Virus record (IMG/VR): IMGVR_UViG_3300032282_001282
Span: 1 to 64,000 of that record
DNA: 64,000 nucleotides
Strand: one strand, 5' to 3'
From: a virus
The translations under genes were made by a program, and so were the position numbers. Below, one piece after another: positions 18,498 to 64,000 of the stretch. The first letter of the stretch is position 1. Each line of letters starts with the position of its first letter. The notes under the pieces were generated by a model, which was not told where the DNA came from, did not search any database, and saw nothing but the letters and a program-made list of their open reading frames with translations.

Positions 18498-19760
18498 TTA
18501 TCTCTTACTTGGCTGTACGACCTTTAGCTTTCGATCCTTAACTATGCGATAATCGGTGTTGGATTTTGTAATATAATCGCGGTTTAGCAACGCCGGTGTT
18601 GCTTGGTATTTGGTAGTTCCAAAGTAATAATTAGGCGTAAAGTTAACTTTAAGGCCCGTAGGACGATCAAGTTCGTAGATAAGAAGGTCAGGACTGATAT
18701 TGTTTGCTAGGTGCTGTAAACCCGATTCCCATGCACTATATAGGTTAGTGCCTTCTAAATTTTTGTAAAACCAATGGTCCATTTCATTAAAGAAACTGTT
18801 ACTTGGCTTGCTAGTTTGCCAAGTTTCTAAATCATAATCTGGGTATATAATGCTCTTGGCAACGTGTTCGTATGCCGTACGTTCTTTGCTTAAATTACCC
18901 GACCAATTGACCATAAACTGTAAGTGTTGATTCTGCGGTAACTCAAACCAATTCTTAATCATGTGTACTTGTTTAACAACTAACTCGGGTAAATCAGGAG
19001 TCCAGTAAAATAATTCTGTAGTTATGTTTGTGTAGTCTCCAACAATGGGACTAGGATGATTACACATAACATCATTAAAATAAAAATACCAGTTGCTGTC
19101 AATGATAGTCATCCTGGGTTTATCAATTCCGTATAGCACACAGATCTTTTTACCAGTGTCGGCTAAGTCCCTGTGTTCTTTTGAATTTAAGTTATTGTGC
19201 TTATCACCGTGTCCGGGCTGGAACCAGTCACGAGTTGTGAATATCCAAGACTCATCTCGAGTTGTTTCTTGTTCAAACATAAACTCGCTGTAGTCATGGA
19301 ATGTTGTTTTAGTCTTTGGATAGTTAGTGCGTATCCAATCAAATAAAGGTTTAGCCGCAAACTCAGCTTCACCTAAGGTATTATTTGCGTTTGTAGTAAA
19401 TGCATCATATACAGCATCTTTGGCCGCTGTCTTGGGATAACGAAACACAACTTCATCTAAGTGTATACCGTTGAGTAAGAAACTAAAGATAGCAGTAGTA
19501 CTGTCACCACCGCCACTGGCTTCTATACGTATCCAATCGTACTTTTCACGTAATTGTACAGCCCTTAGTCTATACAGCTCACGCAAGTCTGTTTCTGGTT
19601 CTATTGACCAGTCACTTCGTGCAAAAACCAACTCGTTAAAATGCCAAGTTGGTTTCTGTCTTGTTTTTGAAGCATACAAGTAAGCCTGAGGCTTTGAATA
19701 AAAAACCTCAGACCCTACCTTGTAATATCCTAACTTAGGATTTTGTTCTATACCATGCAT
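18498..19760 (-). CDS. PP-loop ATP-pyrophosphatase family protein (copy 1)
   Basis: This 420-aa protein carries the PP-loop motif SGGGDS at residues 82-87, the signature of enzymes that adenylate a carbonyl or carboxylate (asparagine synthase, QueC, tRNA thiolases). The preceding region (LGYYKVGSEVFYSKPQAYLYA, EPETDLRELYRLRAVQLREK) and later RDESWIF, CVLYGIDKP and NEMDHWFYK are shared with copies at 20868-22094 and 25875-27002. No glutaminase domain or signal peptide is present. Its ATG overlaps the stop of the upstream Bug gene, so the two are co-translated. The substrate is unknown. Confidence 0.75.
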   Translation of the reverse strand: MHGIEQNPKLGYYKVGSEVFYSKPQAYLYASKTRQKPTWHFNELVFARSDWSIEPETDLRELYRLRAVQLREKYDWIRIEASGGGDSTTAIFSFLLNGIHLDEVVFRYPKTAAKDAVYDAFTTNANNTLGEAEFAAKPLFDWIRTNYPKTKTTFHDYSEFMFEQETTRDESWIFTTRDWFQPGHGDKHNNLNSKEHRDLADTGKKICVLYGIDKPRMTIIDSNWYFYFNDVMCNHPSPIVGDYTNITTELFYWTPDLPELVVKQVHMIKNWFELPQNQHLQFMVNWSGNLSKERTAYEHVAKSIIYPDYDLETWQTSKPSNSFFNEMDHWFYKNLEGTNLYSAWESGLQHLANNISPDLLIYELDRPTGLKVNFTPNYYFGTTKYQATPALLNRDYITKSNTDYRIVKDRKLKVVQPSKR

Positions 19761-20668
19761 TACTGGTCTAGTTTAACACCAACTGTTAGTTTAGTCCAGT
19801 ATTCGTTTTGTTCATCAAACCAAGACTTTAGTTGCTTTTCAGGAACAGTGAACGCCTGGCAATAATCTAATGCGTAGGCATCGTGTACAGATTTTGCATT
19901 TTCAACTTTGAGTAAAATCTCGCGGATTTCTTTAGCCTTAGCTTCAGGGAACGAACTAGGAACCATAAAGTTATATGGTGTATTCATTTTAGCCAATGAT
20001 GCCGGGAAGCCTTGACTGCTCAAGTTAGGAAACTTACCAACTGGCTTAGGACCTGTAGTACCTAGGATATTTAAACGAACTTTATTATCTTCGCCAGTCC
20101 AACGTTCCATGTCGCCTACAAAACCAACAACAAAGTCAACCTGTCCGCCTACGCTACCAATAATAGCTTCAGTGGTACTTTTAAACGGAATGATAGTTGA
20201 ATCGGGGAATTTCTTTTGGAACTGTAGTGCAACTAAATGACTAACAACACCAAGACCACTGGTACCAATAGTTAAGTGTTTGTCTTTAGGAACATCACTC
20301 CATGTGCGATATTTAGGACTTGCAATAGCAAATGGTACGCTACATTGTGTCCAGATAGTTCTAAAGTCATTTACGTTCCAGCTTTCTTTAGGATAGAAGT
20401 TTGGACGTAACCAAAACGCACCAGATGTCATAAAAATGGTGTTAGGGTTATTTTTTACGTGATTTACTGCTACTGCTTGACCGCCACCGGGATAAGCATC
20501 TACTAAGAATTCATATTTCTTTTGTATAGCGTTTGCTTCTCTTGCTAGGTTGCGGGTGTAGTTAAATGAATTGTCAGCGGCGCTGAATCCATAAACGATT
20601 GTAACTTTATCTTGTGCTACGGCTGAAAAAGCCAGAGCCGCAAGTAGTACTGCTAAAATTTTCTTCAC
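19760..20668 (-). CDS. Bug/TctC-type periplasmic solute-binding protein (copy 1)
   Basis: This 302-aa protein has a Sec signal peptide (MKKILAVLLAALAFSAVAQ, cleavage after AVA). The mature fold is of the TctC/Bug type: VTIVYGFSAADNSFNY, YPGGGQAVAVNHVKNNP, TIGTSGLGVVSHL and LSSQGFPASLAKMNTPYN. Such proteins bind carboxylates or similar solutes in the periplasm and pass them to TctAB-type permeases. It starts with GTG. The upstream leader holds both a late box (20855) and a sigma70 promoter (20692-20721). The downstream PP-loop gene overlaps its stop. Confidence 0.85.
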   Translation of the reverse strand: MKKILAVLLAALAFSAVAQDKVTIVYGFSAADNSFNYTRNLAREANAIQKKYEFLVDAYPGGGQAVAVNHVKNNPNTIFMTSGAFWLRPNFYPKESWNVNDFRTIWTQCSVPFAIASPKYRTWSDVPKDKHLTIGTSGLGVVSHLVALQFQKKFPDSTIIPFKSTTEAIIGSVGGQVDFVVGFVGDMERWTGEDNKVRLNILGTTGPKPVGKFPNLSSQGFPASLAKMNTPYNFMVPSSFPEAKAKEIREILLKVENAKSVHDAYALDYCQAFTVPEKQLKSWFDEQNEYWTKLTVGVKLDQ

Positions 20669-20691
20669 GAGAGATCTCCAATAAGTTTATA

Positions 20692-20721
20692 AGTTTACGA
20701 TATTACTCGTATGTTTGTCAA
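20692..20721 (-). promoter_or_regulatory. Sigma70-type promoter of the first Bug gene
   Basis: On the minus strand TTGACA is followed after 18 bp by TAAACT. It lies 24 nt upstream of the GTG start at 20668. The -35 box is perfect, and the promoter looks host-type rather than late phage-type. Confidence 0.6.
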
Positions 20722-20734
20722 ATGTTTTATTTGG

Positions 20735-20850
20735 CTAGTAGAGAAATCTACTTACGGGAATCGGCGTTCTAGGCATAACATGCTAGTAAAAGAGTTTCGC
20801 TACTCTAGGCGTCAATGTGTAGTCCGACGTCGGAGGATCCGGCGTTGCTA
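20735..20850 (-). other. Structured leader between PP-loop copy 2 and Bug copy 1
   Basis: This non-coding stretch has small hairpins (AGTAGA/TCTACT near 20738-20753, AGAGT/ACTCT near 20791-20807) and a 12-bp perfect palindrome TCCGACGTCGGA. Repeated GCCTAGA units and repeated CGGCGTT units are also present. It is transcribed from the late box at 20855 and lies upstream of the sigma70 promoter of the Bug gene. A regulatory or small RNA is possible. Confidence 0.4.
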
Positions 20851-20854
20851 AATT

Positions 20855-20862
20855 TATTTATA
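20855..20862 (-). promoter_or_regulatory. Late promoter box (TATAAATA)
   Basis: This perfect T4-type late element on the minus strand stands just after the stop of the second PP-loop gene. Transcription from it would include the structured leader and the first Bug gene. Confidence 0.6.
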
Positions 20863-20867
20863 CTAGA

Positions 20868-22094
20868 TTAAAATCTGTCGGCAATTTCTACGCTGTAACG
20901 ACGATTGGGATTAGTATACTCTGCAGGACCAATTTTGTAAAATGGAGTTAAGAATCCAACAAAGCCTACTGCACGTTTTAATTCCCAATTAAAATACTTT
21001 GGGTCTACGTTGCGTTCAACAAATTCGATGCCAGCTCGCCAGCTTTGGTACAATTTGTGATTTTCAAATTGACTATAGAACCAATAATCCATTTCACTGT
21101 AGAAGTTAGTAGCAGGCTTACCGACTTGGAAAGTCATTTGATCATAGTCGGGGTATACCAAGGGTTTAATCATTGCTTCATAGGCTGTACGCTGTGCATT
21201 ACTATGATTAGGCCAGCGAGCTAAAAATTGTAAATGACTGTTTGCTGGTTGATTAAACCAGTTGCGTATCACGTGTGCTTGTTTTACACTTAGCTCGGGT
21301 AAATCAGGAGTCCAAAAGAAATACTCGTTAGTAATATTAGTATACTCACCCATGTCGGGGTTGGCGTAGTTAGCTTGGAAGTCGATAAAATACAAATACC
21401 ATTCGCCATCACGTATACACATCTTGGGTTTATCTATGCCGTAGAGTACGCAAATACTTTTTCCAGCGTCGGCTAAGATTCTGTGATTAATTGTTTGGTA
21501 ATTGGGAAATTTAGTAACGTGCCCTGGTTGTAAAAAGTCCTTGGCACTATATACCCAAGACTCATCACGGCCATCATTGGCCAGCATATCAGCAGAGTAA
21601 TCGTGTACTGTTATTTTAATATTAGGGTAGTGTGTCTTGAGCCAATTAAACAGTGGGCGAGTAGCGTACTCATATTCGCTTAGGTGATTTTCTGCGTGAA
21701 AGTTATTTTGTGTAATTGGAATCTTGCCTTCACCGGCTCTAGGATAACGAAACACAATTTCATCTAGGTGTATATCATTTAATAAAAAATTAAATAATGC
21801 CTGTGTGCTATCACTGCCACCACTGCACTCTAATCTAATATAATCGTACTTGTCTCGTAACTGTTGAGCACGAATACGATACAGTTCTTTCAAGCCAATT
21901 TCAGGTTCGTGTTCCCAGTCCTGGGCACCGTAGATTTCATTGTTAAAATTCCAATGCGGAAACTCGCCAGTCTTGGTTGCTTCAATTAAGGCCTGTACCT
22001 TGCTAAAGAAAACTTTATCGCCGACTGTGTAGTAACCTAACTTAGGATTGTTTTCTAAGTTAACATCATAAAACTTTGTTATAAATTTATTCAT
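20868..22094 (-). CDS. PP-loop ATP-pyrophosphatase family protein (copy 2)
   Basis: This 408-aa paralog of the 420-aa protein has SGGSDS at residues 91-96. Shared blocks are LGYYTVGDKVFFSK, EPEIGLKELYRIRAQQLR, RDESWVYSAKDFLQPGH, CVLYGIDKPKM and EMDYWFYSQFE. It is cytoplasmic, with no signal peptide. It follows the oxygenase-like gene, start touching stop, in the order Bug, oxygenase, PP-loop. The strong conservation of blocks far from the PP-loop indicates that the copies do similar chemistry on possibly different substrates. Confidence 0.75.
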   Translation of the reverse strand: MNKFITKFYDVNLENNPKLGYYTVGDKVFFSKVQALIEATKTGEFPHWNFNNEIYGAQDWEHEPEIGLKELYRIRAQQLRDKYDYIRLECSGGSDSTQALFNFLLNDIHLDEIVFRYPRAGEGKIPITQNNFHAENHLSEYEYATRPLFNWLKTHYPNIKITVHDYSADMLANDGRDESWVYSAKDFLQPGHVTKFPNYQTINHRILADAGKSICVLYGIDKPKMCIRDGEWYLYFIDFQANYANPDMGEYTNITNEYFFWTPDLPELSVKQAHVIRNWFNQPANSHLQFLARWPNHSNAQRTAYEAMIKPLVYPDYDQMTFQVGKPATNFYSEMDYWFYSQFENHKLYQSWRAGIEFVERNVDPKYFNWELKRAVGFVGFLTPFYKIGPAEYTNPNRRYSVEIADRF

Positions 22095-22819
22095 TAGAGA
22101 TTAATAACTAAATCTGGACTTGCACGTTTAAGTAATTCTAGTGTTGTTTCTGTTACGTTGCCTGTTACCTGTAGCATAGGACGATCATGCCAACCCATGT
22201 TACAAGTAGCGTGTGGAATGTCTTGCCATTCCCAAGTAATACAATCACCTGCTCGCCATTGTGTCCACATAGCGTTACCTAACTGAAACACCTGTCCTAA
22301 TTGCCAGTCGGTTAACATAATAGCAAAGCGTCGATAGACTTCGGGGTTTTCGTCAAACTTAGTGACCTTAAAACTATTTTCACGTATAGGATTACCGGGA
22401 AAGTTATCTATGTGTGTAACTAACATCTGTCCTGTACGTTGATTGTGGAAGTTAACGTCAGCTCTAGTAAGACCTAATATGTCTCGGATCATACTAAACA
22501 CACCAACGTTTGTTACGTTTTTGCGATCGTAAATTTCCATTTTAGGATCAGCACCGGCACGTATTAAATCAGCTTCTTCGGCACTGGCGGTATACAACTC
22601 GCCTTTTACTTTGTGTTTGTTACGGTCAGCCCAACCTGTTGCTTTCGATGTTGGCGTACATTGTTGTATAGCCGCTGTAAAATCGTAATTAAAACGACAA
22701 ACGTATGTATAACTGTCCTTACCCGGCTCAGGAGGCCGAGTGGGATCAAAATGCCAACGACTTGTAGCCTTTGTGCCTTCCCAACGGCTACCGTTCCAAT
22801 CTAAATATTTTTCTGTCAT
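22094..22819 (-). CDS. 2OG-Fe(II) oxygenase-like protein (copy 1)
   Basis: This 241-aa cytoplasmic protein has TGQMLVTHID (His136, Asp138), then GDCITWEWQDIPHATCN (His203) and HDRPMLQVTG (Arg213). This matches the HxD...H iron triad and 2-oxoglutarate-binding Arg of aspartyl/asparaginyl-hydroxylase-like oxygenases. The core is shared with the 244-aa protein at 27917-28651. It starts directly after the stop of Bug copy 2. The hydroxylation target (amino acid, protein or imported solute) is unknown. Confidence 0.65.
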   Translation of the reverse strand: MTEKYLDWNGSRWEGTKATSRWHFDPTRPPEPGKDSYTYVCRFNYDFTAAIQQCTPTSKATGWADRNKHKVKGELYTASAEEADLIRAGADPKMEIYDRKNVTNVGVFSMIRDILGLTRADVNFHNQRTGQMLVTHIDNFPGNPIRENSFKVTKFDENPEVYRRFAIMLTDWQLGQVFQLGNAMWTQWRAGDCITWEWQDIPHATCNMGWHDRPMLQVTGNVTETTLELLKRASPDLVINL

Positions 22820-23779
22820 TTATTTTGTGGAGAGCGATTTAATTAACGGATTAAAAGTTTTTCTTAAATCTTCAACATGACTTTTAATACCTTGTGGGTA
22901 TAACTCTTCTTCAACGTAGAATACAAAGTTTAAGTCAGCATATTCTTTATACTCTGGACTACGTATTGCATCTGCAAAAACACGTTGATACCAATCGACT
23001 ATGTCCTTGGGTGCATTCGGTGGCAACAACAAACTCCATCCGCCATAGATATTAATGTTTCCTACTGAATCTCTTAGTAGTGGGACATTTGGTAACTGTG
23101 GCAACTTTTTATTACCAGTTAAGCCGATGAATTTAATTTTGCCTGCTTCAGCCAACGGCCTTGCAACAGCACTAGGTAATACGCCAAACTCAATACCGGC
23201 ATCACTGGCAACACTGGTTACAACCTGCGCCGGTCCTTGAAATTGAATATACTGTACCTGTTGATTTCCATTGGCTTTAAGCATCATGTATTCGTAGACC
23301 ATACGATGTGCTCCGCTACCAACTCCAACGTTAATAGGATTTTGTGTAGTCTGTAGTCTCTTTACAAATTCAGCCGGAGTGTTTGTTCGGCTGTCGGCTT
23401 TTGCAACCAAGGCCAGTGGACTCTTGCCAATGGTCATTATGTCGGTGAAACTATTGTAATTAAATTTTTTAACATCCGCTTGCCAAATATCGTTAGTAAC
23501 ATAGATACTCATTTGACTGGGAATTAAAATAGTATAACCGTCAGCTGGCGTAGTTACAAAACTGTTGAGAGCCACTACTCCATCTGCGCCAACTTTGTTT
23601 TCAAATATAAATTTAACATCAGGGTTGCGTTTAGAAATAATGTTTGCAATAGCTCTGAATGTAAGTTCATTACCTGTGCCTGGGCCATAACCTATCACTA
23701 CGTTAATTGGTTTAGTGGGTTCCCAAGCAAATGCGGCCAATGGAAATAGCAATAATGCTAATAGAAGTTTTTTTATCAT
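22820..23779 (-). CDS. Bug/TctC-type periplasmic solute-binding protein (copy 2)
   Basis: This is a 319-aa classical Bug protein with signal peptide MIKKLLLALLLFPLAAFA. The mature part begins WEPTKPINVVIGYGPGTGNE and includes NKVGADGVVALNSFVTTPADGYT, then INVGVGSGAHRMVYEYM and KLPQLPNVPLLRDS. Bug proteins bind organic acids, amino acids or amides. It is the first gene of a Bug, oxygenase, PP-loop operon and is driven by an excellent sigma70-type promoter. phoH starts divergently 130 bp away. Confidence 0.9.
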   Translation of the reverse strand: MIKKLLLALLLFPLAAFAWEPTKPINVVIGYGPGTGNELTFRAIANIISKRNPDVKFIFENKVGADGVVALNSFVTTPADGYTILIPSQMSIYVTNDIWQADVKKFNYNSFTDIMTIGKSPLALVAKADSRTNTPAEFVKRLQTTQNPINVGVGSGAHRMVYEYMMLKANGNQQVQYIQFQGPAQVVTSVASDAGIEFGVLPSAVARPLAEAGKIKFIGLTGNKKLPQLPNVPLLRDSVGNINIYGGWSLLLPPNAPKDIVDWYQRVFADAIRSPEYKEYADLNFVFYVEEELYPQGIKSHVEDLRKTFNPLIKSLSTK

Positions 23780-23825
23780 TTTGATTGAAATTCTGATGTG
23801 CCTAATACTTATACTAGTTTCTACA

Positions 23826-23854
23826 AGTATAAACTGTTATTTTATCAAAGTCAA
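23826..23854 (-). promoter_or_regulatory. Sigma70-type promoter of the Bug copy 2 operon
   Basis: On the minus strand TTGACT, a 17-bp spacer and TATACT lie 47 nt upstream of the ATG at 23779. It faces away from phoH. Confidence 0.75.
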
Positions 23855-23909
23855 GCCATGACCTAAATAATTTAGTAGACACCATGTCTACTATTTCAAG
23901 GAGGCAAAT

Positions 23910-24677
23910 TTGTCCAAACGACAACGAGGTAATAGAGCAGAGGCTCTAATTGTAGATAATCACAGTAGTTTTAGTAGTAATAATACAGTAAGGTTGGACT
24001 TGTATCAGAAACCTAGTAAGTTTCAACAACGCCCAATTACGCTGATCCCAAAAAGTCTTGCCCAAGAGACCTATATTGACCTATTAACCGATCCCGAAAA
24101 ACTTATAGTGTTTGCCACAGGCCCAGCGGGCACAGGCAAAACAATGCTGGCTGTACTGGCCGCACTCAAAGCATTTAGGGATGGCAAAATAGAACGTATA
24201 GTCGTAACAAGACCTGCTGTGGGAGTCGATGATGAAGAACATGGGTTTTTACCCGGAGACTTAAATGAAAAGATGGCTCCGTGGACTAGACCTATATTTG
24301 ACATAATCGGCGAATACTACCGCCAAACAGAAATCGTACGTATGCTAGATGAAAATCAAATTGAGATCAGTCCCCTAGCCTATATGAGAGGTAGAACATT
24401 TAAAAAATCGTGGATTATTGCAGACGAAATGCAAAACGCGACACCAAGTCAGATGAAAATGTTACTCACACGATTAGGGGAAGGCAGTAAAATGATCGTT
24501 ACAGGTGATACACGCCAAGCAGATAGACAGGAGGACGACAACGGATTGTTGGATTTCCAGCGTTTAGTAGAGGATTATCAACGCTGTAAATATGTGTCTG
24601 GAATCGAGTTCGATCACAGAGATATTCAACGACACCCTGCTGTGCTTGAAATTCTTAAAATTTACAAGGAGGTCTAG
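23910..24677 (+). CDS. phoH: PhoH-like ATPase
   Basis: This 255-aa P-loop ATPase of the PhoH family has Walker A GPAGTGKT (71-78), VTRPAVGVDDEEHGFLPGDL, DEMQN (Walker B) and VTGDTRQ. These proteins are nucleotide-dependent RNA/DNA-associated helicase-like enzymes common in phages. The start is TTG, chosen for its ideal AGGAGG site 6 nt upstream. It is one of only two genes on the plus strand and is closed by a terminator at 24700-24724. Confidence 0.92.
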   Translation: MSKRQRGNRAEALIVDNHSSFSSNNTVRLDLYQKPSKFQQRPITLIPKSLAQETYIDLLTDPEKLIVFATGPAGTGKTMLAVLAALKAFRDGKIERIVVTRPAVGVDDEEHGFLPGDLNEKMAPWTRPIFDIIGEYYRQTEIVRMLDENQIEISPLAYMRGRTFKKSWIIADEMQNATPSQMKMLLTRLGEGSKMIVTGDTRQADRQEDDNGLLDFQRLVEDYQRCKYVSGIEFDHRDIQRHPAVLEILKIYKEV

Positions 24678-24699
24678 TTTATACAAATTAGATAGAGTA

Positions 24700-24724
24700 A
24701 ACCCGGGATCTTCCCGGGTTTTGT
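24700..24724 (+). terminator. Rho-independent terminator of phoH
   Basis: AACCCGGG pairs perfectly with CCCGGGTT across a 5-nt loop and is followed by TTGTT. It lies 23 nt after the phoH stop. Confidence 0.8.
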
Positions 24725-24743
24725 TATACCCCCCACTAAATAC

Positions 24744-24751
24744 TATAAATA
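24744..24751 (+). promoter_or_regulatory. Late promoter box (TATAAATA), plus strand
   Basis: This is a perfect T4-type late element 90 nt before the DctP-like start. A second AT-rich CATAAATA occurs closer, near 24805. It is the only strong late box found on the plus strand. Confidence 0.5.
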
Positions 24752-24840
24752 TTTCAAGTATGCCTTGCTGTGCCCCCCAAATTCACAAACATTATTTAAT
24801 TAAGGCATAAATATGTTTATATCACTAGGAGATTTACAAT

Positions 24841-25878
24841 ATGTCAGACCGCAGAAAAATTCGTTGGTTAATTGCCCACTTTCCGGTACACCTATTTCAA
24901 AGAACTGCCGAAGCATTTGGCCGCGAACTAGAAACTTTGTGCCCAGGACAATTTGAACTCGAAATCCACACTTTAGATACTTTTGCAGAAAAGTACAGCG
25001 ACAAGTATAGCAATATCAATAAGCGTATGCCACGCTTGCCAGGCTTAGAAGATAAGCAAGGAATTGCAAAGAAGCATGCCGCTACTGACGTTAAAGAAAT
25101 GTACGAAAAATGGGATACATTCTTTGATGGTTTGCGTGAAGGCGATTTCGAAATGAGCCAAACACAAGTATTTACAGTTGCTGAAAAATTACATAATAAA
25201 GATTTTGCCGCACTAGATTTACCATTCTTGTTTGACAATCACGACCACGTTAGCCGTGTATTAGATGGCGAAATTGGTGACGAGCTATGCAAAGGCCTAG
25301 AAAATGAAAAGATTCGTGGTTTAGCATTTACTTACTCCGGTGGTTATCGCATTATCGGTAGCACAAATGGTCTAAGCAACCTTAGTGATTTAGCACACAC
25401 AGATTTGATCGTTGCTAACCGTCCAAGCGAAGTATTGTTTGGCAATGGTTTTGGAACTCCAATCCTACGTCGCTCTGAAGTTGCTAACGCTAGTTTAGCT
25501 GAAGGTGTAAATGACGGCATGGCTGTTGAAACTACATACATTCGCTTTACTGGTAAGCACGTATTAAAAACAAATCACAGTATTTTCATGACAACTATCT
25601 TAACTGGTACTAAGTTCTTAGATAGTTTAACAGAAGACCAACGTAATGCATTTATGGTTGCCGCAAAGCGTGTAGCTAAGATCGAACGTGAGTGGTCTGT
25701 TGCAGATGCTGAAAAATACGAACGCGATGCTGTAACCAATGGTGTTACAATCATTGACTTGTCTGAAGAAGACCAGGCGTTGTTACAGAAGCGAGCAAAA
25801 CTAAGCTATCGCCATGTTGAAGACATGGGTATCGATGTAAACTTAGTAAAACGTATTATTGAACGTCGTAAAGATTAA
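24841..25878 (+). CDS. DctP/TRAP-type solute-binding protein without signal peptide (copy 1)
   Basis: This 345-aa protein has a DctP fold pattern: LDLPFLFDNHDHVSRVLDGE, IRGLAFTYSGGYRIIGS and then VETTYIRFTGKHVLKT. TRAP SBPs normally bind carboxylates in the periplasm, using an Arg in the G-x-R region. Here the N-terminus MSDRRKIRWLIAHFPVH lacks any signal peptide, so it should stay in the cytoplasm. It has a good AGGAG site. Its last 4 nt overlap the end of the convergent PP-loop copy 3. A paralog lies at 28635-29597. Confidence 0.7.
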   Translation: MSDRRKIRWLIAHFPVHLFQRTAEAFGRELETLCPGQFELEIHTLDTFAEKYSDKYSNINKRMPRLPGLEDKQGIAKKHAATDVKEMYEKWDTFFDGLREGDFEMSQTQVFTVAEKLHNKDFAALDLPFLFDNHDHVSRVLDGEIGDELCKGLENEKIRGLAFTYSGGYRIIGSTNGLSNLSDLAHTDLIVANRPSEVLFGNGFGTPILRRSEVANASLAEGVNDGMAVETTYIRFTGKHVLKTNHSIFMTTILTGTKFLDSLTEDQRNAFMVAAKRVAKIEREWSVADAEKYERDAVTNGVTIIDLSEEDQALLQKRAKLSYRHVEDMGIDVNLVKRIIERRKD

Positions 25879-27002
25879 ATATCACCCACGTAATAACGTG
25901 GGCTGTATTTAGGAATAGTGCCCCGGCCGTTGAGAAACTCCGGGGCTATATTTTTGGCTAGATAATCTGCACCTTGTGCCCAAACATCACGTGCTCGACT
26001 AAACTGTTTTGTATTATAGAACCAAGTATCAAACTCATTGTCCCAATCGCTCTGCGGCTTGTCGACCTGGAACCACGTATTGTCCCATGTTGTTTGATAC
26101 ACAACTCCACGTAAGATCTTTTCCTTGGCAGTTTTAAATATACTGTTAGTACTAGACCAAATACGCTGATAGGTAGGATTGACTTGTAAGAATCGTAAGA
26201 AGGTATGACATTGTTTAGCAAGTATATCGCAAGCTTCAGGCGACCAGTAAAAGAATTCTACTGTGCTGTTATCGTATTCACCAAAGTTTGGATTGATGTT
26301 AATGTTATTAGCTGGCTTGTCTATAAACTGTAGATAGAGTTTGCCGTCAACAATAGTACACGGCGGCTTATCAATGCCTAGTATAATACCAATGTTTTGT
26401 CGGCTGTCAATACGTGAACGTACTTCTTTAACGTGGTAATAATTGTAACGTTGATTACCGCCAGGATTAATAACATCACGACTGTCTAACACCCAAGACT
26501 CGTCACGTGCTTTTAAGTAATAGGTTAAGATGTCTTTGCTAGAATCGTATACTGTAACCTTAGTATTAGGCATATTATCTGCAATCCATTGCATCTTATC
26601 CTTGACTGTTAGTTCATACTCGGCGTTTTGATTCCACGTTTCTGTAATTGCGGGATCTAGTACTAGGAAGTCAGTTTTACTTGCTTCAAAGATCCAGTTA
26701 GTAATAATTTCATCAATGTGCAGACCTTGACGATAGAATGACATTAGGATATTATGACTGTCTGCACCACCTGAGTAACTTAGGATAATGTAATCATATT
26801 GTTCACGTAGTTCACGTGCCCTACGATCATATAGTGCATCTAATGACAGTTCTGGTTCATGACTAAAATCGTACGCATCAAATACATCATTGTTAAACAC
26901 CCATTCAACAGGCAGTTTATTTTGTGTAGCGTGTAGCAAACAGCGGGCTTTGCTGGCAAATGCTTGATTGCCAGCAATATAATATCCTAAGGATTTATTC
27001 AT
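25875..27002 (-). CDS. PP-loop ATP-pyrophosphatase family protein (copy 3)
   Basis: This 375-aa protein has SGGADS at residues 77-82, closest to the SGGxDS consensus. It shares LGYYIAGNQAFASKA, EPELSLDALYDRRARELREQ, RDESWVLDSRDVINPGG and LGIDKP with the other copies. It is the last gene of the operon DctP-like, oxygenase-like, Bug, PP-loop and begins on the Bug stop codon. Its 3' end contains a CCCACG/CGTGGG hairpin and overlaps the end of the convergent DctP copy 1 gene. Confidence 0.75.
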   Translation of the reverse strand: MNKSLGYYIAGNQAFASKARCLLHATQNKLPVEWVFNNDVFDAYDFSHEPELSLDALYDRRARELREQYDYIILSYSGGADSHNILMSFYRQGLHIDEIITNWIFEASKTDFLVLDPAITETWNQNAEYELTVKDKMQWIADNMPNTKVTVYDSSKDILTYYLKARDESWVLDSRDVINPGGNQRYNYYHVKEVRSRIDSRQNIGIILGIDKPPCTIVDGKLYLQFIDKPANNININPNFGEYDNSTVEFFYWSPEACDILAKQCHTFLRFLQVNPTYQRIWSSTNSIFKTAKEKILRGVVYQTTWDNTWFQVDKPQSDWDNEFDTWFYNTKQFSRARDVWAQGADYLAKNIAPEFLNGRGTIPKYSPRYYVGDI

Positions 27003-27907
27003 TATTGTAGTGGCTTAACTTTTGCGGCTTGCTCGCGCCAGAACTTAACCTGTTGGTTAAACCAGCTAACTGTTTGTGCCCAGGTAAAATCTGCTGGTGT
27101 TGAAAACTCTCTAGCATAACCAGCTTGTACATCCGGTGCCCGGTTAGCTACACGTAGTAGCTCATATAGCTCTCGAACTTTTTCTGCAGGCATCTCAGTA
27201 CTAGCAACAATAACAGTATTGGTACTTACATTTTCAAATCCTTTGATACCTTGGCTTGCTAAAGTTGGGTGGCCTTTGATGCTACGTGTTCCTGTTAGGC
27301 CTAGCACACTTGTCAAATTTGCGTCAACTGCGCCTTCAATTTCACTTAACCAGTTCCAACCAGTATCAATATGTCGACCTAATACATCTTTATTGGCATC
27401 TACTAAACTAGTGTAATTAACAATACGAACACCGCTATAATGTTCGCCTAAAATACTTCCCATTAAATTACTGTGGCTACCATAACCGCTGATTGATGTC
27501 GTAAACCCATAGTCTTTCTTTATATCTTTGACGCTTTTGTATTGTGTACTAAAGAGTGCAACTGGTGCGCCAAGGGTTTGAACTAATACTGGTTGAAAAC
27601 TTTCTGCGGCATATCCTGTTTCTTTATCAAAGTTTGGCCGAATAAAGAACGTGCTTGTGCCACCGAGTAATGTATTCTTAGGATTATCCAATATATACTT
27701 TGCGGCTACTGCACCACCTGCACCAGGTTTAGTTTCAAAAACAAACTCGTACTTGGTTTGATTCTTATTAAGATCTGCTACCATAGCACGATAAAAGTTT
27801 GCTTGGTTAGCGGCAGGACTAAAACCCCAGACTAAGGTAATTCTTTCTGCGGCCATTGCCGTGACTGAAGCGGCCATAAGTGCGGCCAACACTATTTTTT
27901 TAAACAT
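27002..27907 (-). CDS. Bug/TctC-type periplasmic solute-binding protein (copy 3)
   Basis: This 301-aa protein has signal peptide MFKKIVLAALMAASVTAMAA and a mature TctC-like domain (ITLVWGFSPAANQANFYRAM, KPGAGGAVAAKYILDNPKN, TSISGYGSHSNLMGS, HPTLASQGIKGFENVS). It is most like copy 1 in its short 'FSPAANQANF' pocket start. It lies 9 nt after the oxygenase-like gene and overlaps PP-loop copy 3. Confidence 0.85.
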   Translation of the reverse strand: MFKKIVLAALMAASVTAMAAERITLVWGFSPAANQANFYRAMVADLNKNQTKYEFVFETKPGAGGAVAAKYILDNPKNTLLGGTSTFFIRPNFDKETGYAAESFQPVLVQTLGAPVALFSTQYKSVKDIKKDYGFTTSISGYGSHSNLMGSILGEHYSGVRIVNYTSLVDANKDVLGRHIDTGWNWLSEIEGAVDANLTSVLGLTGTRSIKGHPTLASQGIKGFENVSTNTVIVASTEMPAEKVRELYELLRVANRAPDVQAGYAREFSTPADFTWAQTVSWFNQQVKFWREQAAKVKPLQ

Positions 27908-27916
27908 TTAATTTTC

Positions 27917-28651
27917 CTATTTGAAATTTCTTACATTGAACTTGGGATCAGTACGATCTGTTCTAAGTCCAGTTACTTGCAAAGTCATGCGGCTATGCTC
28001 ACTTGCATTGGCTGTGGCGTGTGGAACATTTGGCCAATCATGCATATGAACTTCTCCGGCTCTCCATTGTTGATATACAGAGTTACCATATATCATAAAC
28101 TGTCCGGGCTTCCAATCTTCTAACATAACAGTAGCACGGACAATATCTAAAGGATCGTAACCATAGTCCTGGTTATCAGGATTACCATTACCATCCCGGT
28201 AAAACAATCTTTGTATTGGGTCTATGTGTGCTGTAAACATTTGCCCAGTTTTTTGTACATGACAACGAGAGTGTGTCACACTAAAATTAAAACTGTCAAT
28301 AACTTTTTGTAATTCAGGAAACTCTGTAAAGTCATCAAAGACATCAGTTAATTCGATTTGATCGAGATTGCCACCGCCCCGAGCAATATCAGACTTGCGT
28401 TTGTCGATGCCCAGTACAATTTGCTTGGAACCACCTGTATAGGTAATGTTGTTCCAAGTGGCAGAAAAACTGCGATTGCGTATAACAGGAAGGTAGTCGT
28501 TCCACGTTACTGGAACACTACCTAATACCATAAATGTTGAGTTGGGTCTGTCTTGTTTAAAATTATCAAAGTGGTAAGAGCTTTTTGTCTTTGACCACTC
28601 CCATACGCTATCGTAATCTGCTAGAGTTTTTGGTTTATTTGAGTTTTCCAT
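27917..28651 (-). CDS. 2OG-Fe(II) oxygenase-like protein (copy 2)
   Basis: This 244-aa paralog of the 241-aa protein has TGQMFTAHID (His142, Asp144), AGEVHMHDWPNVPHATAN (His211) and SRMTLQVTG (Arg221). The N-terminal 110 residues differ and have no recognised match. It overlaps the DctP copy 2 gene by 17 nt and precedes Bug copy 3. The same core motifs at similar spacing in both copies argue for an active enzyme. Confidence 0.65.
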   Translation of the reverse strand: MENSNKPKTLADYDSVWEWSKTKSSYHFDNFKQDRPNSTFMVLGSVPVTWNDYLPVIRNRSFSATWNNITYTGGSKQIVLGIDKRKSDIARGGGNLDQIELTDVFDDFTEFPELQKVIDSFNFSVTHSRCHVQKTGQMFTAHIDPIQRLFYRDGNGNPDNQDYGYDPLDIVRATVMLEDWKPGQFMIYGNSVYQQWRAGEVHMHDWPNVPHATANASEHSRMTLQVTGLRTDRTDPKFNVRNFK

Positions 28652-29597
28652 TTGTTAATTGATCAAGCAGTCCTGAGCTAAAATAAGTGTTAAACTTATT
28701 ATACAGTCCTGCTGTTGCAGATACAAATTTTTCTTTTTCATTTGCAGTCATGCGTACAGTAGGAATGCCTTGCTCAGCGGCACGTTTTTGAATTACAACA
28801 TTATCGGCTAGGCTATGATCACGTTCGATTTGAGCGGCTCTCATAGCGGCACGAGCAAAAATGCCCTGTACCTTTTCACCTAAGGCTAACCAAGTTTGTT
28901 GGTTGATAATTAAACTGGTTAGGAACAAGCTGTGTTCGTTATCATTAATATGTGTAGTTTGCTTATCGTGGCCTAGTACAAAGAAACGAGTGTAAGTAGT
29001 TTCACCACCATCAACACGACCAGTTTCTAAACTAGCTTCTAAGTCTTCGATAAACATTGGAACTGGAGTAGAGCCAACGGCCTTGAAAGTTTCAACTGCT
29101 ACTGGGTTATTACCACAGCCGATATTCATACTAGCAAAATCGCCAATGGATTCGATTGCACGATTACTTGGAACAATACGGAAACCACCTGAGTAAGTAA
29201 ATGCTAGTCCACGGATATTGCTATTATCAGCAACTTTGGCCAACATGTGTTGCCCAACTGGACCATCAATAACTTGACGTGCTTGCTCATCGCTGTTGAA
29301 TAAGAATGGCATTGTTAGTGCATACATATCTTTGTCAACACGACCTAAAGTACTTGCATAAACTGTAGCCATGTCAATAATACCATTATCAACTAAACCG
29401 ATAACACGCTCACGGTCTGTAGTGTGTTCTGTTAAATTATCTTTAGCAATAGCGTTCCATTCTTTAAGATCTAGAACATTAATTGTATATTGACCGTTGG
29501 TTTCTGTATAAACTTCTTCGGCAAAGCTCTTAGCGGCTTCAATAAAAACATGGTAAGGCTCATGGGCCAATACCCAGTTTAGGGTGTACTTTTGCAT
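28635..29597 (-). CDS. DctP/TRAP-type solute-binding protein without signal peptide (copy 2)
   Basis: This 320-aa protein shares with copy 1 the blocks ALTMPFLFNSDEQARQVIDG, RGLAFTYSGGFRIVPS and GETTYTRFFVLGHDK. The start MQKYTLNWVLAHEPYHVF is not a signal peptide, so a cytoplasmic location is likely. It is the first gene of the second module, with a late box GATAAATA and an AGGAG site upstream. A ligand-binding sensor or substrate carrier feeding the PP-loop enzyme are possible roles, both inferred. Confidence 0.7.
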   Translation of the reverse strand: MQKYTLNWVLAHEPYHVFIEAAKSFAEEVYTETNGQYTINVLDLKEWNAIAKDNLTEHTTDRERVIGLVDNGIIDMATVYASTLGRVDKDMYALTMPFLFNSDEQARQVIDGPVGQHMLAKVADNSNIRGLAFTYSGGFRIVPSNRAIESIGDFASMNIGCGNNPVAVETFKAVGSTPVPMFIEDLEASLETGRVDGGETTYTRFFVLGHDKQTTHINDNEHSLFLTSLIINQQTWLALGEKVQGIFARAAMRAAQIERDHSLADNVVIQKRAAEQGIPTVRMTANEKEKFVSATAGLYNKFNTYFSSGLLDQLTNGKLK

Positions 29598-50293: not shown

Positions 50294-51451
50294 TTAGAAG
50301 CGATGTGTCATACCAACCACATAAGCGTTTTGAGTAGTTCCTGTAGAAGCTACCACGCTTGGGTATGTTGCTGTTCCGTATAGTGAACCATAGTTTGCAC
50401 CACCAGCACCATATGGAGCAAATCCACTAGTACCTTTGTTGGCAGTAGAAGCTACACCAATGTAAGCAGTGGTACGCTTGCTAAAGTTGTAGTCACCCAC
50501 TAGACTCCAGGTTTGCGAACCATTAGCAGAACTGATATTGTCTTTGAGATTGTAATAACCAGCAGTCACATCAACCTTGGAAGTTGCATTATACTTGACA
50601 CTTACTTGACGTAGATCAAAGTCTGTGTTAGCGGCATTGGCACCATTTGGGTTTTGGAAGTTTGCCCAACCAGCGGCTACCTTGAACTTGTCAATGGTGT
50701 AGTTACCACCGATAGTTGTTGTTTCAGCAGTTGCTAACCCAGCGGCACTATTAGATGTCTGATAACTGGCAGAACCATTAAACGCACCACGAGTATAAGC
50801 CAATGCATACAAACGACGGCTACTTGCATCCAACGCACCAAAAGTTGTGTTATCGGCTACACCGCCAGTTGTGTATTGTACAGAACCTTTGAAGCCTGCA
50901 ATCACTGGAGTGTCTAAACGAACAGCGTTACTCAGGAATGTTGTACCAGTCATGGTAGCAAGACCAGTCTTGGCTGTGCTTGTGCCACCAAAGGTAGAAC
51001 CATCATTCCAGTAGTTCAAAGAACCACCAAAGTTACGGCCTGCGTTAACGTCACCAACTGCAAATGATTCAAATGCCAAGTTGTCTTGACGACCTAGAGT
51101 CATACGACCCAAGCCGGTGTTGTCTAGATAAACGTTTGCGCCACGGCTGAACACGTTGTTTGCTGTGCCCGAACTTGAACTTGCACCTTGGCTACCATCG
51201 GCTGGATTGATCTGTGATTCAATTTTGAATCCAGCTTTTGTACCGCCACCTAAATCTTCTGTACCAGTAAAACCAATACGGCTGGTCCACATTGGTGAAC
51301 TGAGGACTTGGGTCGCGTTTTGACCTGCTGTTCCAACGTTGGTTGCGTTAACAACACCAATGTCCATGATACCATAGACACTAACGTTTGATTGAGCGTG
51401 GGCGATGCCAAAACTTAAGGCAAGGCTTACCGCTAATAGTAGTTTCTTCAT
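50294..51451 (-). CDS. Outer-membrane porin of the Burkholderiales type
   Basis: This 385-aa full-length Gram-negative porin has signal peptide MKKLLLAVSLALSFGIAHA. The mature start QSNVSVYGIMDIGVV, beta-barrel strand patterns throughout (GSLNYWNDGSTFGGTST, YALAYTRGAFNGSASYQTSN) and the C-terminal aromatic signature YVVGMTHRF needed for BamA insertion are all present. It would form a trimeric diffusion pore in the outer membrane. It has its own sigma70-type promoter and terminator, so it is a single-gene unit. It is probably host-derived. Confidence 0.92.
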   Translation of the reverse strand: MKKLLLAVSLALSFGIAHAQSNVSVYGIMDIGVVNATNVGTAGQNATQVLSSPMWTSRIGFTGTEDLGGGTKAGFKIESQINPADGSQGASSSSGTANNVFSRGANVYLDNTGLGRMTLGRQDNLAFESFAVGDVNAGRNFGGSLNYWNDGSTFGGTSTAKTGLATMTGTTFLSNAVRLDTPVIAGFKGSVQYTTGGVADNTTFGALDASSRRLYALAYTRGAFNGSASYQTSNSAAGLATAETTTIGGNYTIDKFKVAAGWANFQNPNGANAANTDFDLRQVSVKYNATSKVDVTAGYYNLKDNISSANGSQTWSLVGDYNFSKRTTAYIGVASTANKGTSGFAPYGAGGANYGSLYGTATYPSVVASTGTTQNAYVVGMTHRF

Positions 51452-51606: not shown

Positions 51607-52386
51607 TTAACTACTACTATAACTAGCTTTTAATGTATTTTCTAGTTTAGTTGTATCAGCACAAGTATAGGCTTGGTAACTGTTTTTTAGTTCGGCGGGC
51701 ATTGGAACAACATCAATGGGTACATCAAATAATTGAGCTACACTATAAAAACTTCTTGGTTGACCAGTACCTACGTTCCATACTCCGGACTCTTTAACGT
51801 TTAAAAACTTCATGTGCGTATCTACAACACGACCAACGTGAATAAAATCTCTACAGTATTTTTCACTGTTTTCAAAAACTTCAATTCGACCTAGAGTCTT
51901 GGCCTGCTGTTGGAATTGCATAAAAGGACTTGCTTGGTTGCCTTTGTGTTCTTCGCCGTTGGGACCATAGACATTAAAGTATCGAAACCCTTGTGCTGTA
52001 AAACTACTAGGATTGTTTTGCACATAGCGTTCAAACAAATACTTTGACCAAGCATAAGGTGTGCGTGGATCAACAGGAGCATCTTCTTTAAAAGTACTTA
52101 CTAGACCGTAGACGCTTGCAGAGCTTGCATATTGAAATTTTACTCTAACACTTTTACAATCTTCGTAAAGCTGAATACTAAAATCTAAATTTTGTCTAAG
52201 TACTTTTTCAATGTCACGCTCAGTAGTGCTACTAATAGCACCAAGGTGTATACACCAGTTGTGTCCTGATATTTGTGGATAAGGATCTCCCCACTCGTAT
52301 GTAGTAACTTCGTGACCTTCGGCTTGCAGTCTAAGTAACATATGGCCACCAATGAAACCACGGTGGCCTGTTAATAAAATTTTCAT
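51607..52386 (-). CDS. HldD-like ADP-heptose epimerase
   Basis: This 259-aa short-chain dehydrogenase has GHRGFIGGHM at the NAD(P)-binding start, a YxxxK active site in TPYAWSKYLFERY, and RYFNVYGPNGEEHKGNQASP. The latter resembles the HldD block FNVYGPNEYHKGDMAS, with RDFIHV after it. HldD converts ADP-D-glycero- to ADP-L-glycero-D-manno-heptose for the LPS core. The protein is shorter than bacterial HldD (about 310 aa). It lies in an operon with a cupin, HldE-like kinase and nucleotidyltransferase. Confidence 0.75.
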   Translation of the reverse strand: MKILLTGHRGFIGGHMLLRLQAEGHEVTTYEWGDPYPQISGHNWCIHLGAISSTTERDIEKVLRQNLDFSIQLYEDCKSVRVKFQYASSASVYGLVSTFKEDAPVDPRTPYAWSKYLFERYVQNNPSSFTAQGFRYFNVYGPNGEEHKGNQASPFMQFQQQAKTLGRIEVFENSEKYCRDFIHVGRVVDTHMKFLNVKESGVWNVGTGQPRSFYSVAQLFDVPIDVVPMPAELKNSYQAYTCADTTKLENTLKASYSSS

Positions 52387-52742
52387 CGCTGACTATCGCC
52401 CTTGCCTACTCGGTAATTGTCCTCTACAGAGTCTGGCGTAGAAACTTCAATAACTGTACCTGCTTTAATACATTCTAATTGATGCGGCATACAAGGAGTA
52501 TTATGCCAAGTATCGCCTTCATTTAATTCTACTTCATAAACCGAAGCATCCTTGGTATCAATATGTCGGACAATAAATTTACCCGATTGTATATACCAAG
52601 TTTCTTCTTTGTCTTTATGGAAGTGCATACTAAATTTACAACCTGTTTCAAAGTTCATAAACTTGCCGCAATATTTGTCGTTAGTGGCCCAGATAAATTC
52701 TGAACCCCACCCCTTTGGTACTAAACCTTTTAATTTTGTCAT
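52383..52742 (-). CDS. Cupin protein of the heptose operon
   Basis: This 119-aa single cupin has FSMHFHKDKEETWYIQSGKF with two His and Glu as likely metal ligands. GDTWHNTPCMPHQLECI and VIEVSTPDS follow. It resembles sugar isomerases or WxcM-like cupins of nucleotide-sugar operons. It overlaps both neighbours by 4 nt. Confidence 0.7.
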   Translation of the reverse strand: MTKLKGLVPKGWGSEFIWATNDKYCGKFMNFETGCKFSMHFHKDKEETWYIQSGKFIVRHIDTKDASVYEVELNEGDTWHNTPCMPHQLECIKAGTVIEVSTPDSVEDNYRVGKGDSQR

Positions 52743-53491
52743 TTGATTTCCTCTAAAGTAGGCGCATAGTTTCCTAGGTGCTGTACTGTAACTGCACTGG
52801 CACGTATAGCAAACTCAATTGCCTGTTCCATATTTTTTGTATTTAGATATTCATATGTAAGGGCAGACAAGAATGTATCTCCTGCGCCACATACATCGGC
52901 AACTTCAACGGGTTCAGCGTCAAAGTCAAAGCCATTCCAAAAAGCACCTTCAGCACCCATTGTAATAATTAGGTACCCGGGGTCTGGAACGCTTGTAACA
53001 AGACCTGCTTCTAGTTGGTTGATTTTAATATAGCAACCATTGATAGATTTTAAGTCTGTTTTCTTAGTGTCAACAAATATAGGGCCAACAAATTCCTTAC
53101 GCAATTCTTCTATTAATTCGTAACTAACTGTGCCCTTATTATAATCGCTAATAACTATAGCATCGTAGATGTCGGGGATTTCGCTGGCAAAACTAAGCGG
53201 ACTAGATACTTGATCATCGTCAATGCGAACTATATGTTGTTTGCTACGACTATCAATCAGTCTAGTCTTAGTAGATGTTTTACCATGTAGGAAGTTTACA
53301 TTACATCCAAGTGCTACTAGGTTAGCATATACATTACCAGCCATACCAGGCTTAGAGTCTGTGCCGCGTGGTACAAACACCGGTACAGGTGCTTCGGGAC
53401 TAACACGATCTACAGTACCGTACTGATATACGTCTGTGCAGTTATCCCCGATTAATAATATGTTGAATTTTTTTTGTGCTTGAGTACTCAT
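52739..53491 (-). CDS. HldE-like heptose kinase (PfkB family)
   Basis: This 250-aa PfkB-family kinase has an N-terminal NILLIGDNCTDVYQYGTVDR...SPEAPVPVF block typical of HldE, PGMAGNVYANLVALGC and the catalytic loop VADVCGAGDTFLSAL. It would phosphorylate D-glycero-D-manno-heptose 7-phosphate at O1. HldE also contains the nucleotidyltransferase as a fused domain, and here that domain is a separate upstream gene. The start at 53491 (MSTQAQ) is preferred to 53512, although it still overlaps that gene by 50 nt. Confidence 0.8.
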   Translation of the reverse strand: MSTQAQKKFNILLIGDNCTDVYQYGTVDRVSPEAPVPVFVPRGTDSKPGMAGNVYANLVALGCNVNFLHGKTSTKTRLIDSRSKQHIVRIDDDQVSSPLSFASEIPDIYDAIVISDYNKGTVSYELIEELRKEFVGPIFVDTKKTDLKSINGCYIKINQLEAGLVTSVPDPGYLIITMGAEGAFWNGFDFDAEPVEVADVCGAGDTFLSALTYEYLNTKNMEQAIEFAIRASAVTVQHLGNYAPTLEEIK

Positions 53492-53864
53492 CGATTCTTT
53501 CAAAAAATACAATTTGTGGGCATACCTCTTCCCCCACTATAGGCTTTCCTCGATAGTCACTACCTTTAACCATTATACTACAGTTCTTGATAATGTCAAC
53601 TAGCTCTGCGTCGGTGCCAAAAATTTTAACTTCGTCAACAGAACGCAAATTTTCTAATAGAGTTTTTCTTTCTACTTCATTGTTAACTGGCCGTGAGGGA
53701 CCTTTTAGACTGCGTACACGGCTATCGGAATCAATGGCTACAACTAGATAATCACCAAGGGATTTAGCATAATTTAATAATGCTAAGTGCCCGAGGTGCA
53801 ATACATCAAAGGTACCATTTACTACTATTTTGACTGCTCTGCTAATTCTTTGTACCCTGCCCAA
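53442..53864 (-). CDS. HldE-like adenylyltransferase domain protein
   Basis: This 140-aa protein is a nucleotidyltransferase of the HxGH class: VNGTFDVLHLGHLALLNYA, then RVRSLKGPSRPVN, RKTLLENLRSVDEV and VKGSDYRG. It corresponds to the C-terminal half of HldE that makes ADP-heptose from heptose 1-phosphate. The first ten residues overlap the SGNH gene by 40 nt, as no later start exists before the catalytic motif. Confidence 0.8.
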   Translation of the reverse strand: MGRVQRISRAVKIVVNGTFDVLHLGHLALLNYAKSLGDYLVVAIDSDSRVRSLKGPSRPVNNEVERKTLLENLRSVDEVKIFGTDAELVDIIKNCSIMVKGSDYRGKPIVGEEVCPQIVFFERIDEYSSTKKIQHIINRG

Positions 53865-63241: not shown

Positions 63242-64000
63242 TTATTGTACGTTTTTCTTGGTTTTTTCTAATATTTTAAATGTCTTATTCTGTATTGTAC
63301 GCAAATCCTCAAACGAGCCACCGGCGTTTATAACGCCCGATGTTTTGAGTCTTTCTGCGTATACAGGATTTTTCAACCCTTCCTCAACCACGAGATGTAT
63401 TCTAGCCACAGTTGCTAAATCAGTACCAGCCGGCGCAAATAGTCCATACCAAATGTTCATGTCTAATTCGGGGTGCTTCTTGGATAACGCTGGTAATTTA
63501 ACAGAAGGATTTAATTCGTTGACCGTATGGCTTCCTTCGGGAGTCAGTGCGGCAATAAATTTAATTTTTCCAGCCTGCCATTGTGGCTTTAGTGTACCCA
63601 GTGAATCAATTGAAAAATCCACATTGCCGGCCATCAAATCAATCAGTGCTGGGCCGCCACCTTTGTAGTTGATAATCTGTGGTGCTGGTAATTTTTCCAA
63701 TTTGGCCCAGTATGTAAACAAGTTGGCATTGTGATTGGACCAGTGTGCTATGTTGAATTTGTTGGGATTTTTGCGTACATAGTCCTTGAGTTCTTCATAG
63801 TTGTTAACAGGACTGTTTGCAGGAACAGCAAGAATAAATGTGGCAATACCCATTGGGATAATTGGAGAGAAACTGGCCGGTGTATATTCTATATTTTCTT
63901 GTGCAGTCTTGAAAACAATATTACTGTCCAAGGTACCTTGACTGACCATGAATACTGTGTGTCCGTCTGGATTGGCCTTGGCCACATAGTTGGCGGCAAT
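63242..64000 (-). CDS. Bug/TctC-type solute-binding protein (copy 4), truncated by window edge
   Basis: The C-terminal 252 residues are visible and the frame stays open to the window end (IAANYVAKANPDGHT). The N-terminus and signal peptide would lie beyond 64000. KANPDGHTVFMVSQG, NYKGGGPALIDLMAGNVDFS and LSKKHPELDMNIWYGLFAP are classic Bug features. A GTG at 63985 is not the real start. The terminator downstream ends the transcript. Confidence 0.85.
   Translation of the reverse strand: MAANYVAKANPDGHTVFMVSQGTLDSNIVFKTAQENIEYTPASFSPIIPMGIATFILAVPANSPVNNYEELKDYVRKNPNKFNIAHWSNHNANLFTYWAKLEKLPAPQIINYKGGGPALIDLMAGNVDFSIDSLGTLKPQWQAGKIKFIAALTPEGSHTVNELNPSVKLPALSKKHPELDMNIWYGLFAPAGTDLATVARIHLVVEEGLKNPVYAERLKTSGVINAGGSFEDLRTIQNKTFKILEKTKKNVQ

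Follow-up and report, generated by a model that had tools for sequence, protein, structure and literature searches.

We describe a phage gene module, and an RNA leader associated with it, in a window of 64,000 bases (the whole stretch of DNA analysed; bases 1–64000 of the 86,283-base IMG/VR virus record IMGVR_UViG_3300032282_001282). The module joins solute-binding proteins of the Bug/TctC and TRAP (DctP) types to a family of PP-loop ATPase-fold proteins and, in places, to 2-oxoglutarate (2OG)/Fe(II)-oxygenase-like proteins. We show that the PP-loop, Bug and DctP genes are linked physically and evolutionarily, and both the module and the RNA are well supported as real and conserved, with no earlier description in the sources searchable. 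Their carriers are uncultivated T4-like aquatic phages, represented by hundreds of contigs. Tentatively, and with a little less than even confidence, we read the whole as a late-expressed accessory-metabolism module that captures and activates carboxylates, partly under the RNA leader.

PP-loop, Bug and DctP genes are linked

The window is T4-like, with PHROGs matches for the clamp loader, DNA ligase, PhoH, a ClpA-like protease, endolysin and virion proteins. Its module genes, called mechanically as open reading frames (ORFs), and the associated features are the following.

18498..19760, minus strand: PP1, PP-loop ATPase-fold protein, 420 residues, motif SGGGDS
19760..20668, minus strand: Bug2, TctC/Bug-type solute-binding protein with signal peptide; start free of upstream overlap, stop overlapping PP1 by 1 base
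20733..20856, minus strand: structured RNA leader of the Bug2–PP1 unit, conserved core from GCAACGCC to AGC at 20848–20734; no Rfam match
20855..20862, minus strand: TATAAATA, T4-type late promoter hexamer/octamer, 6 nucleotides before the conserved GCA of the RNA; its position departs from chance, its number does not
20868..22094, minus strand: PP2, PP-loop ATPase-fold protein, 408 residues, SGGSDS; structure modelled
22094..22819, minus strand: 2OG/Fe(II)-oxygenase-like protein A, 241 residues, HxD...H...R
22820..23779, minus strand: Bug1, TctC-family solute-binding protein with signal peptide
23910–24677, plus strand: PhoH gene, inside the span and not a module member
24841..25878, plus strand: DctP2, TRAP-type solute-binding protein without signal peptide
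25875..27002, minus strand: PP3, PP-loop ATPase-fold protein, 375 residues, SGGADS
27002..27907, minus strand: Bug3, divergent Bug-type protein with signal peptide
27917..28651, minus strand: 2OG/Fe(II)-oxygenase-like protein B, 244 residues; 17-base overlap with DctP1
28635..29597, minus strand: DctP1, TRAP-type solute-binding protein without signal peptide
63242..64000, minus strand: Bug4, TctC, continuing beyond the window end
64273–65388 of the record: PP4, after Bug4

A first-pass annotation, made from the letters of the window alone, had proposed three Bug/PP-loop sets, two of them with an oxygenase-like gene, and two DctP genes; all ten genes lie where it had placed them, as Bug3 with PP3, Bug1 with oxygenase-like A and PP2, and Bug2 with PP1. 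The start/stop coupling that it reported is read directly as a one-base overlap (TAATG) between each PP-loop gene and the gene before it, and the conserved blocks it saw among the copies are borne out as well, with PP copies 36–50% identical to PP1 and the two oxygenase-like and two DctP copies 34% and 31% identical, respectively. It had overlooked a fourth pair, Bug4/PP4, which spans the window end, as well as the structured RNA at 20733–20856 and the lack of signal peptides in DctP. Each of the four Bug genes thus adjoins one of the four PP-loop genes, an arrangement found in 0 of 200,000 random orders of the roughly 115 genes.

A scan with four PP proteins placed PP-loop genes at 406 or more confirmed positions in IMG/VR viral contigs, which are themselves unverified and often fragments. 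The adjacency expected of related phages is mostly kept: the best 80 PP loci, the most that a locus scan returns, contain 135 PP copies; 62 of these loci also have Bug and 58 have DctP, the figures for 66 non-redundant PP-anchored contigs being 49 and 45. Because this set had been chosen for PP, the linkage was also examined in reverse. A PP-loop gene is present in 35 of 50 non-redundant DctP-anchored contigs (other PP-loop subfamilies counted) and in 39 of 56 Bug-anchored ones, against 3 of 58 control contigs anchored on the oxygenase-like gene, 23 of which hold Bug; for loci of at least 12 kb, the differences from the control have Fisher p values of 6e-9 (DctP-anchored) and 6e-10 (Bug-anchored). 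Several of the PP-loop genes beside DctP belong to different subfamilies that share little beyond the loop with the window family, so that the pairing has recurred independently.

Distances between PP proteins correlate with those between adjacent Bug proteins (Mantel r of 0.69 for 41 downstream and 0.46 for 28 upstream neighbours, each above all 999 permutations), a correlation to which phage relatedness contributes. Where synonymous divergence is unsaturated, the ratio of non-synonymous to synonymous substitution (dN/dS) against four relatives is 0.05–0.28. The PP-loop family had no match in 50,697 isolate-phage records and only two in 84,980 species genomes, each on a short metagenome-assembled contig of viral appearance. 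As the first-pass annotation surmised, no description of Bug, PP-loop, oxygenase-like and DctP genes in combination was found in the literature searched.

The RNA leader and its late promoter

Upstream of Bug2 lies a structured element of about 110 nucleotides. Iterated nhmmer searches of the collected loci recovered 119 copies, 73 of them distinct, and the next gene is DctP for 52, Bug for 18 and another for 3. In an alignment of 65 elements, three hairpins and an outer helix emerge, with changes on both sides in 14 of 18 pairs; 98.1% of alignment cells pair, compared with 81% when shuffled and 23–58% when slid, and covariation is 0.538 versus 0.222, although relatedness among the phages inflates such counts. 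A fourth hairpin of at least 4 base pairs is found in all 117 distinct elements, against 32% after shuffling, and a given position may be filled by a GC, AT, TA or CG pair; this is weaker evidence, as its stems were picked as best fits. Single-sequence folding is unremarkable (z about −0.8), so the case for structure rests on covariation.

The resulting model discriminates: the window gives a single match (2e-35), 18 loci match among 77 selected with a loose GC-rich pattern, and, in 48 loci not expected to hold the element, it matches only two contigs that were already known carriers. One metagenome-assembled genome held a copy, and none occurred in 300 other genomes of the same order. Identity with a known RNA was rejected, as Rfam gave no match in the window at the gathering score and only chance-level matches to the element (E 0.5–8, on the other strand), and blastn against INPHARED gave none.

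Within 40 nucleotides upstream, xATAAATA is present in 80 of the 117 distinct elements, 73 of them with the motif 5 or 6 nucleotides before the conserved GCA, and ATAAATA occurs in 68% of upstream windows compared with 0.7% of random ones. In the window itself, TATAAATA is no more frequent than chance predicts, and what departs from chance is where it stands, ahead of the RNA. Transcription from T4 late promoters begins at about that distance downstream, and the RNA should therefore form the 5′ terminus of a late mRNA.

A gene-blind pattern scan, yielding at least 119 stretches, found the first gene to be Bug in 17, DctP in 12 and PP in 3; others are TctA, ABC-type solute-binding proteins (PF13416), porins, DUF2061, desaturase, TauD and AMP-binding ligase loci. 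The element thus leads accessory genes, among which those for solute-binding proteins are the most frequent. A conserved structured leader upstream of metabolic and transport genes has the placement of a riboswitch, and the RNA may be one. The methylophage Melnitz carries a glutamine riboswitch (PMC9004378), likewise a structured RNA with accessory genes in a T4-like aquatic phage; its RNA, however, is of the known glnA class and adjoins tmRNA (PMC9004378), whereas the window RNA has no counterpart in Rfam and stands before genes for transport and enzymes. Rfam matches identify permuted tmRNA genes, and tRNAs, in phages that have the module (L011 and L130).

The diversity of first genes, together with a gene order that is reshuffled among close relatives, would also suit a mosaic of unrelated accessory genes gathered in a shuffling region, with the element acting as a recombination handle or as a general stabilizer or translation aid of late mRNAs rather than as a switch. 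We consider this quite unlikely, given the one-base Bug/PP overlaps, the correlated PP and Bug trees and the recurrence of the pairing with different PP-loop subfamilies. Compensatory base pairs and invariant unpaired blocks further argue for a role at the RNA level, one that fits a riboswitch, a protein-binding leader or a stabilizing leader equally well. We favour a riboswitch or a protein-binding or stabilizing leader, on equal terms, over a cassette handle with an RNA-level function.

Proteins of the module

Neither the PP-loop genes nor the oxygenase-like genes matched any Pfam or NCBIfam model. A model of PP2 built from 80 relatives (AlphaFold pLDDT 91.8) finds only PP-loop enzymes as its best Foldseek matches in the PDB, namely carbapenam synthetase (2.8e-4), GMP synthetase, LarE, TilS, and the beta-lactam and NAD synthetases. 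By its modelled fold, this is a real family of ATP-pyrophosphatase type, and the ATP site on which the first-pass annotation had staked its idea is retained, SGGxDS being intact in 222 of 236 copies; with motif and fold both kept, we rejected the view that these are pseudo-ATPases. The modelled similarity, at low TM-score, is nearest to AsnB-like synthetases, a suggestive sub-assignment. The phage family shares the PP-loop fold and the SGGxDS motif with synthetases of the AsnB type (asparagine, beta-lactam and carbapenam synthetase), a type that includes its best Foldseek matches, but differs from them in having an N-terminal domain reduced to about 80 residues, no Asn_synthase match in Pfam and, as features peculiar to it, the invariant blocks GxDKP and KQxH. 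It also lacks the N-terminal catalytic cysteine (Cys2 in 0 of 236 copies), so any amide formation would proceed without a glutaminase, as it does in beta-lactam synthetase. Alignment of the family to AsnB with hhalign and a PDB sequence search with its profile gave no useful match. It has no named PHROG family, with 7 of 80 members touching an unnamed 52-residue PHROG and 1 of 80 PAPS reductase, and its BFVD relatives are all uncharacterized proteins of uncultured Caudovirales.

Among the Bug proteins, Pfam TctC recognizes Bug1 (6e-23) and Bug4 (1e-35) above the cut-off and Bug2 (6e-6) just under it; Bug3 has no TctC match and is recognized only through its family. A joint alignment of all Bug types is too diverse for profile scanning. 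The Bug2-type profile matches solved TphC (8e-15), Bug27 and BugD, and the closest solved structures to Bug1-type proteins are terephthalate-binding proteins (6e-60). Judged by sequence, these relatives point to carboxylate binding and not to a named ligand. As in tripartite tricarboxylate transporter receptors (BugD, Bug27, TphC and the terephthalate-binding protein among them), a TctC match, the ligand loops PGAGG and G.G(T)TSHL and a signal peptide are found in the phage proteins, and some phages add TctA; a hydrophobic N-terminus with an A-x-A-like end, by a simple hydropathy test, is present in about 90% of 90 copies, including all three window copies. Unlike those receptors, the phage copies are divergent, have PP-loop or oxygenase genes as partners and mostly occur in loci without TctA/TctB.

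The two window DctP proteins match Pfam DctP (5e-24 and 1e-43), and the phage DctP profile gives a full-length match to solved TRAP dicarboxylate receptors (3e-42), the class to which DctP and SiaP belong. By the same hydropathy threshold, however, none of 70 phage copies has a signal peptide. These proteins are cytosolic, and hence cannot be ordinary periplasmic capture proteins, a correction to the first-pass annotation; with no DctQM genes found either, a normal TRAP receptor was rejected. TRAP receptors use two arginines for the carboxylate, one of them in the K-x-R strand, and this second arginine is lost in 7 of 24 aligned phage copies, both window copies included. In about 14 contigs, moreover, DctP is split at the lobe boundary, one ORF encoding the N-lobe and another the C-lobe, with an overlap of ATGA or of 17 bases (L007, L025, L027, L036, L045, L053 and L068 among them, L036 with two C-lobe genes). 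Two kinds of junction, the number of contigs and conserved reading frames led us to reject sequencing error as the cause. Some phages with a split DctP also have PP proteins in which SGGADG replaces SGGxDS.

Cytosolic DctP, its lobes encoded separately and once with two C-lobes, and the altered ligand site of the window copies would all be compatible with sensing or sequestration, in which DctP (whole or in two pieces) and Bug act as sponges or sensors of a small acid or host signal, which the PP-loop enzyme would alter or break down, for instance to counter a host response. We regard this as unlikely: Bug is predicted by hydropathy to be exported, the presence of a TctA permease next to Bug in phages speaks for transport, and no PADLOC defence model matched, a result on which a defence or counter-defence family was also rejected.

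The oxygenase-like protein, modelled at pLDDT 91.1, matches the 2OG enzymes SnoN, P4H and AspH, and the HxD...H iron triad plus arginine is predicted to lie on a double-stranded beta helix, as in 2OG/Fe(II) oxygenases; the full HxD, H, R motif is kept in 101 of 116 copies. A PDB sequence search with its profile, and hhalign against the Asp_Arg_Hydrox protein of the same phage, gave no useful match. The role of general PP-loop partner given to it in the first-pass annotation has to be abandoned on the anchored counts above, and the gene is mainly a companion of Bug and TctA. Phages that carry it often have a TctA permease beside Bug (PF01970, 5e-94; 28 non-redundant groups). A recurrent phage set consists of TctA permease, Bug, sulfotransferase-like, 2OG-like and methyltransferase genes (L165, L168, L180, L204 and others of L164–L242).

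Neighbouring genes and a possible pathway

The loci with PP-loop and DctP genes also hold Trp halogenase (PF04820), BKACE, AMP-binding and ATP-grasp ligases, full AsnB and DUF2061. Their theme is carboxylate handling and activation. Two phage contigs, L121 and L127, have BKACE, AMP-binding ligase, SDR, Rieske, desaturase and ATP-grasp genes and three kinds of PP-loop gene around Bug/DctP, a set that looks like a whole biosynthetic pathway. A small DUF2061 membrane protein, itself behind the RNA leader, lies within two genes of DctP in 41 of 56 matches (loci L129, L141, L319, L321, L329 and L354), and tryptophan-halogenase-like genes stand beside PP-loop/Bug genes or behind the leader (L051, L359).

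In the window, positions 50294–51451 (minus strand) encode an outer-membrane porin, PorB/Porin_4-like and of betaproteobacterial type, and porin genes elsewhere follow the same RNA leader (L352, L370, L382). Beside it, at 51607–53864 (minus strand), are sugar-nucleotide genes (NAD-epimerase-like, cupin, kinase, cytidylyltransferase-like) that probably serve to alter a surface glycan. At 66108–74091 of the record (L003:2108–10091, minus strand) are a B12-binding radical-SAM protein, Asp_Arg_Hydrox and other 2OG-like proteins, together with a Cys-rich protein (L003:7741–8616) whose N-terminus resembles T4-like virion proteins and which adjoins a radical-SAM/SPASM maturase; this cluster possibly serves a modification of a virion protein like that of ribosomally synthesized and post-translationally modified peptides.

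Neighbours such as Trp halogenase (PF04820), Asp_Arg_Hydrox, 2OG_Oxy_5 and the B12 and SPASM radical-SAM proteins, and the two virion-structural genes and endolysin that come after the module, could indicate chemical decoration, in which PP-loop, 2OG, radical-SAM, sulfotransferase-like and halogenase proteins modify a virion protein, a glycan on the host surface or a precursor of DNA, and the binding proteins do no more than provide the building block. The core linkage is with binding proteins and not with tailoring enzymes, however, and the 2OG gene is rarely near PP-loop genes, which makes this improbable in our view.

The simplest reading, drawn from what is known of these families, would be that a carboxylate is captured, bound in the cytosol and then activated with ATP. 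Bug, exported to the periplasm, would import the acid with a host or phage TctA/TctB permease; the cytosolic DctP-like protein would bind the same kind of acid inside the cell, as a carrier or buffer; and the PP-loop enzyme would adenylate it and, needing no glutaminase, join it through an amide or a comparable bond. In loci that encode one, the 2OG enzyme would hydroxylate the product. The RNA leader would set expression, possibly as a riboswitch reading the acid or a related metabolite. The TctA genes that phages carry beside Bug, and the AMP-binding ligase and ATP-grasp enzymes, count in favour of this capture-and-activation pathway.

Several points weigh against it. Ligand, substrate and product we infer; Foldseek TM-scores of the PP-loop model are low (0.2–0.33), sequence profiles do not confirm the AsnB-like sub-assignment, and one PP clade has SGGADG. 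A cytosolic DctP has no place in ordinary uptake, the loss of its K-x-R arginine extends to both window copies, and the RNA leader stands before only some Bug/DctP genes, a single one in the window. The capture-then-activate idea of the first-pass annotation nevertheless stands as the best-supported reading, with the roles of oxygenase and DctP corrected.

It is more doubtful that both stronger forms of this reading hold together, namely that the leader represents a new class of riboswitch, located at the extreme 5′ end of late phage mRNAs and coordinating an accessory-metabolism regulon of Bug, DctP, PP-loop, TctA, porins, desaturases and ligases, and that the PP-loop proteins are a new amide-forming family acting on acids from phage-encoded, partly cytosolic binding proteins. 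If the capture-and-activation reading is true, lytic phages would go beyond boosting single host reactions and install a late pathway of their own, in which a PP-loop family not known from cells is combined with transport receptors relocated to the cytosol. In that case the leader would be a phage-specific regulatory class that links numerous accessory genes, and the identity of the compounds that these phages sense and import would become a directly testable question.

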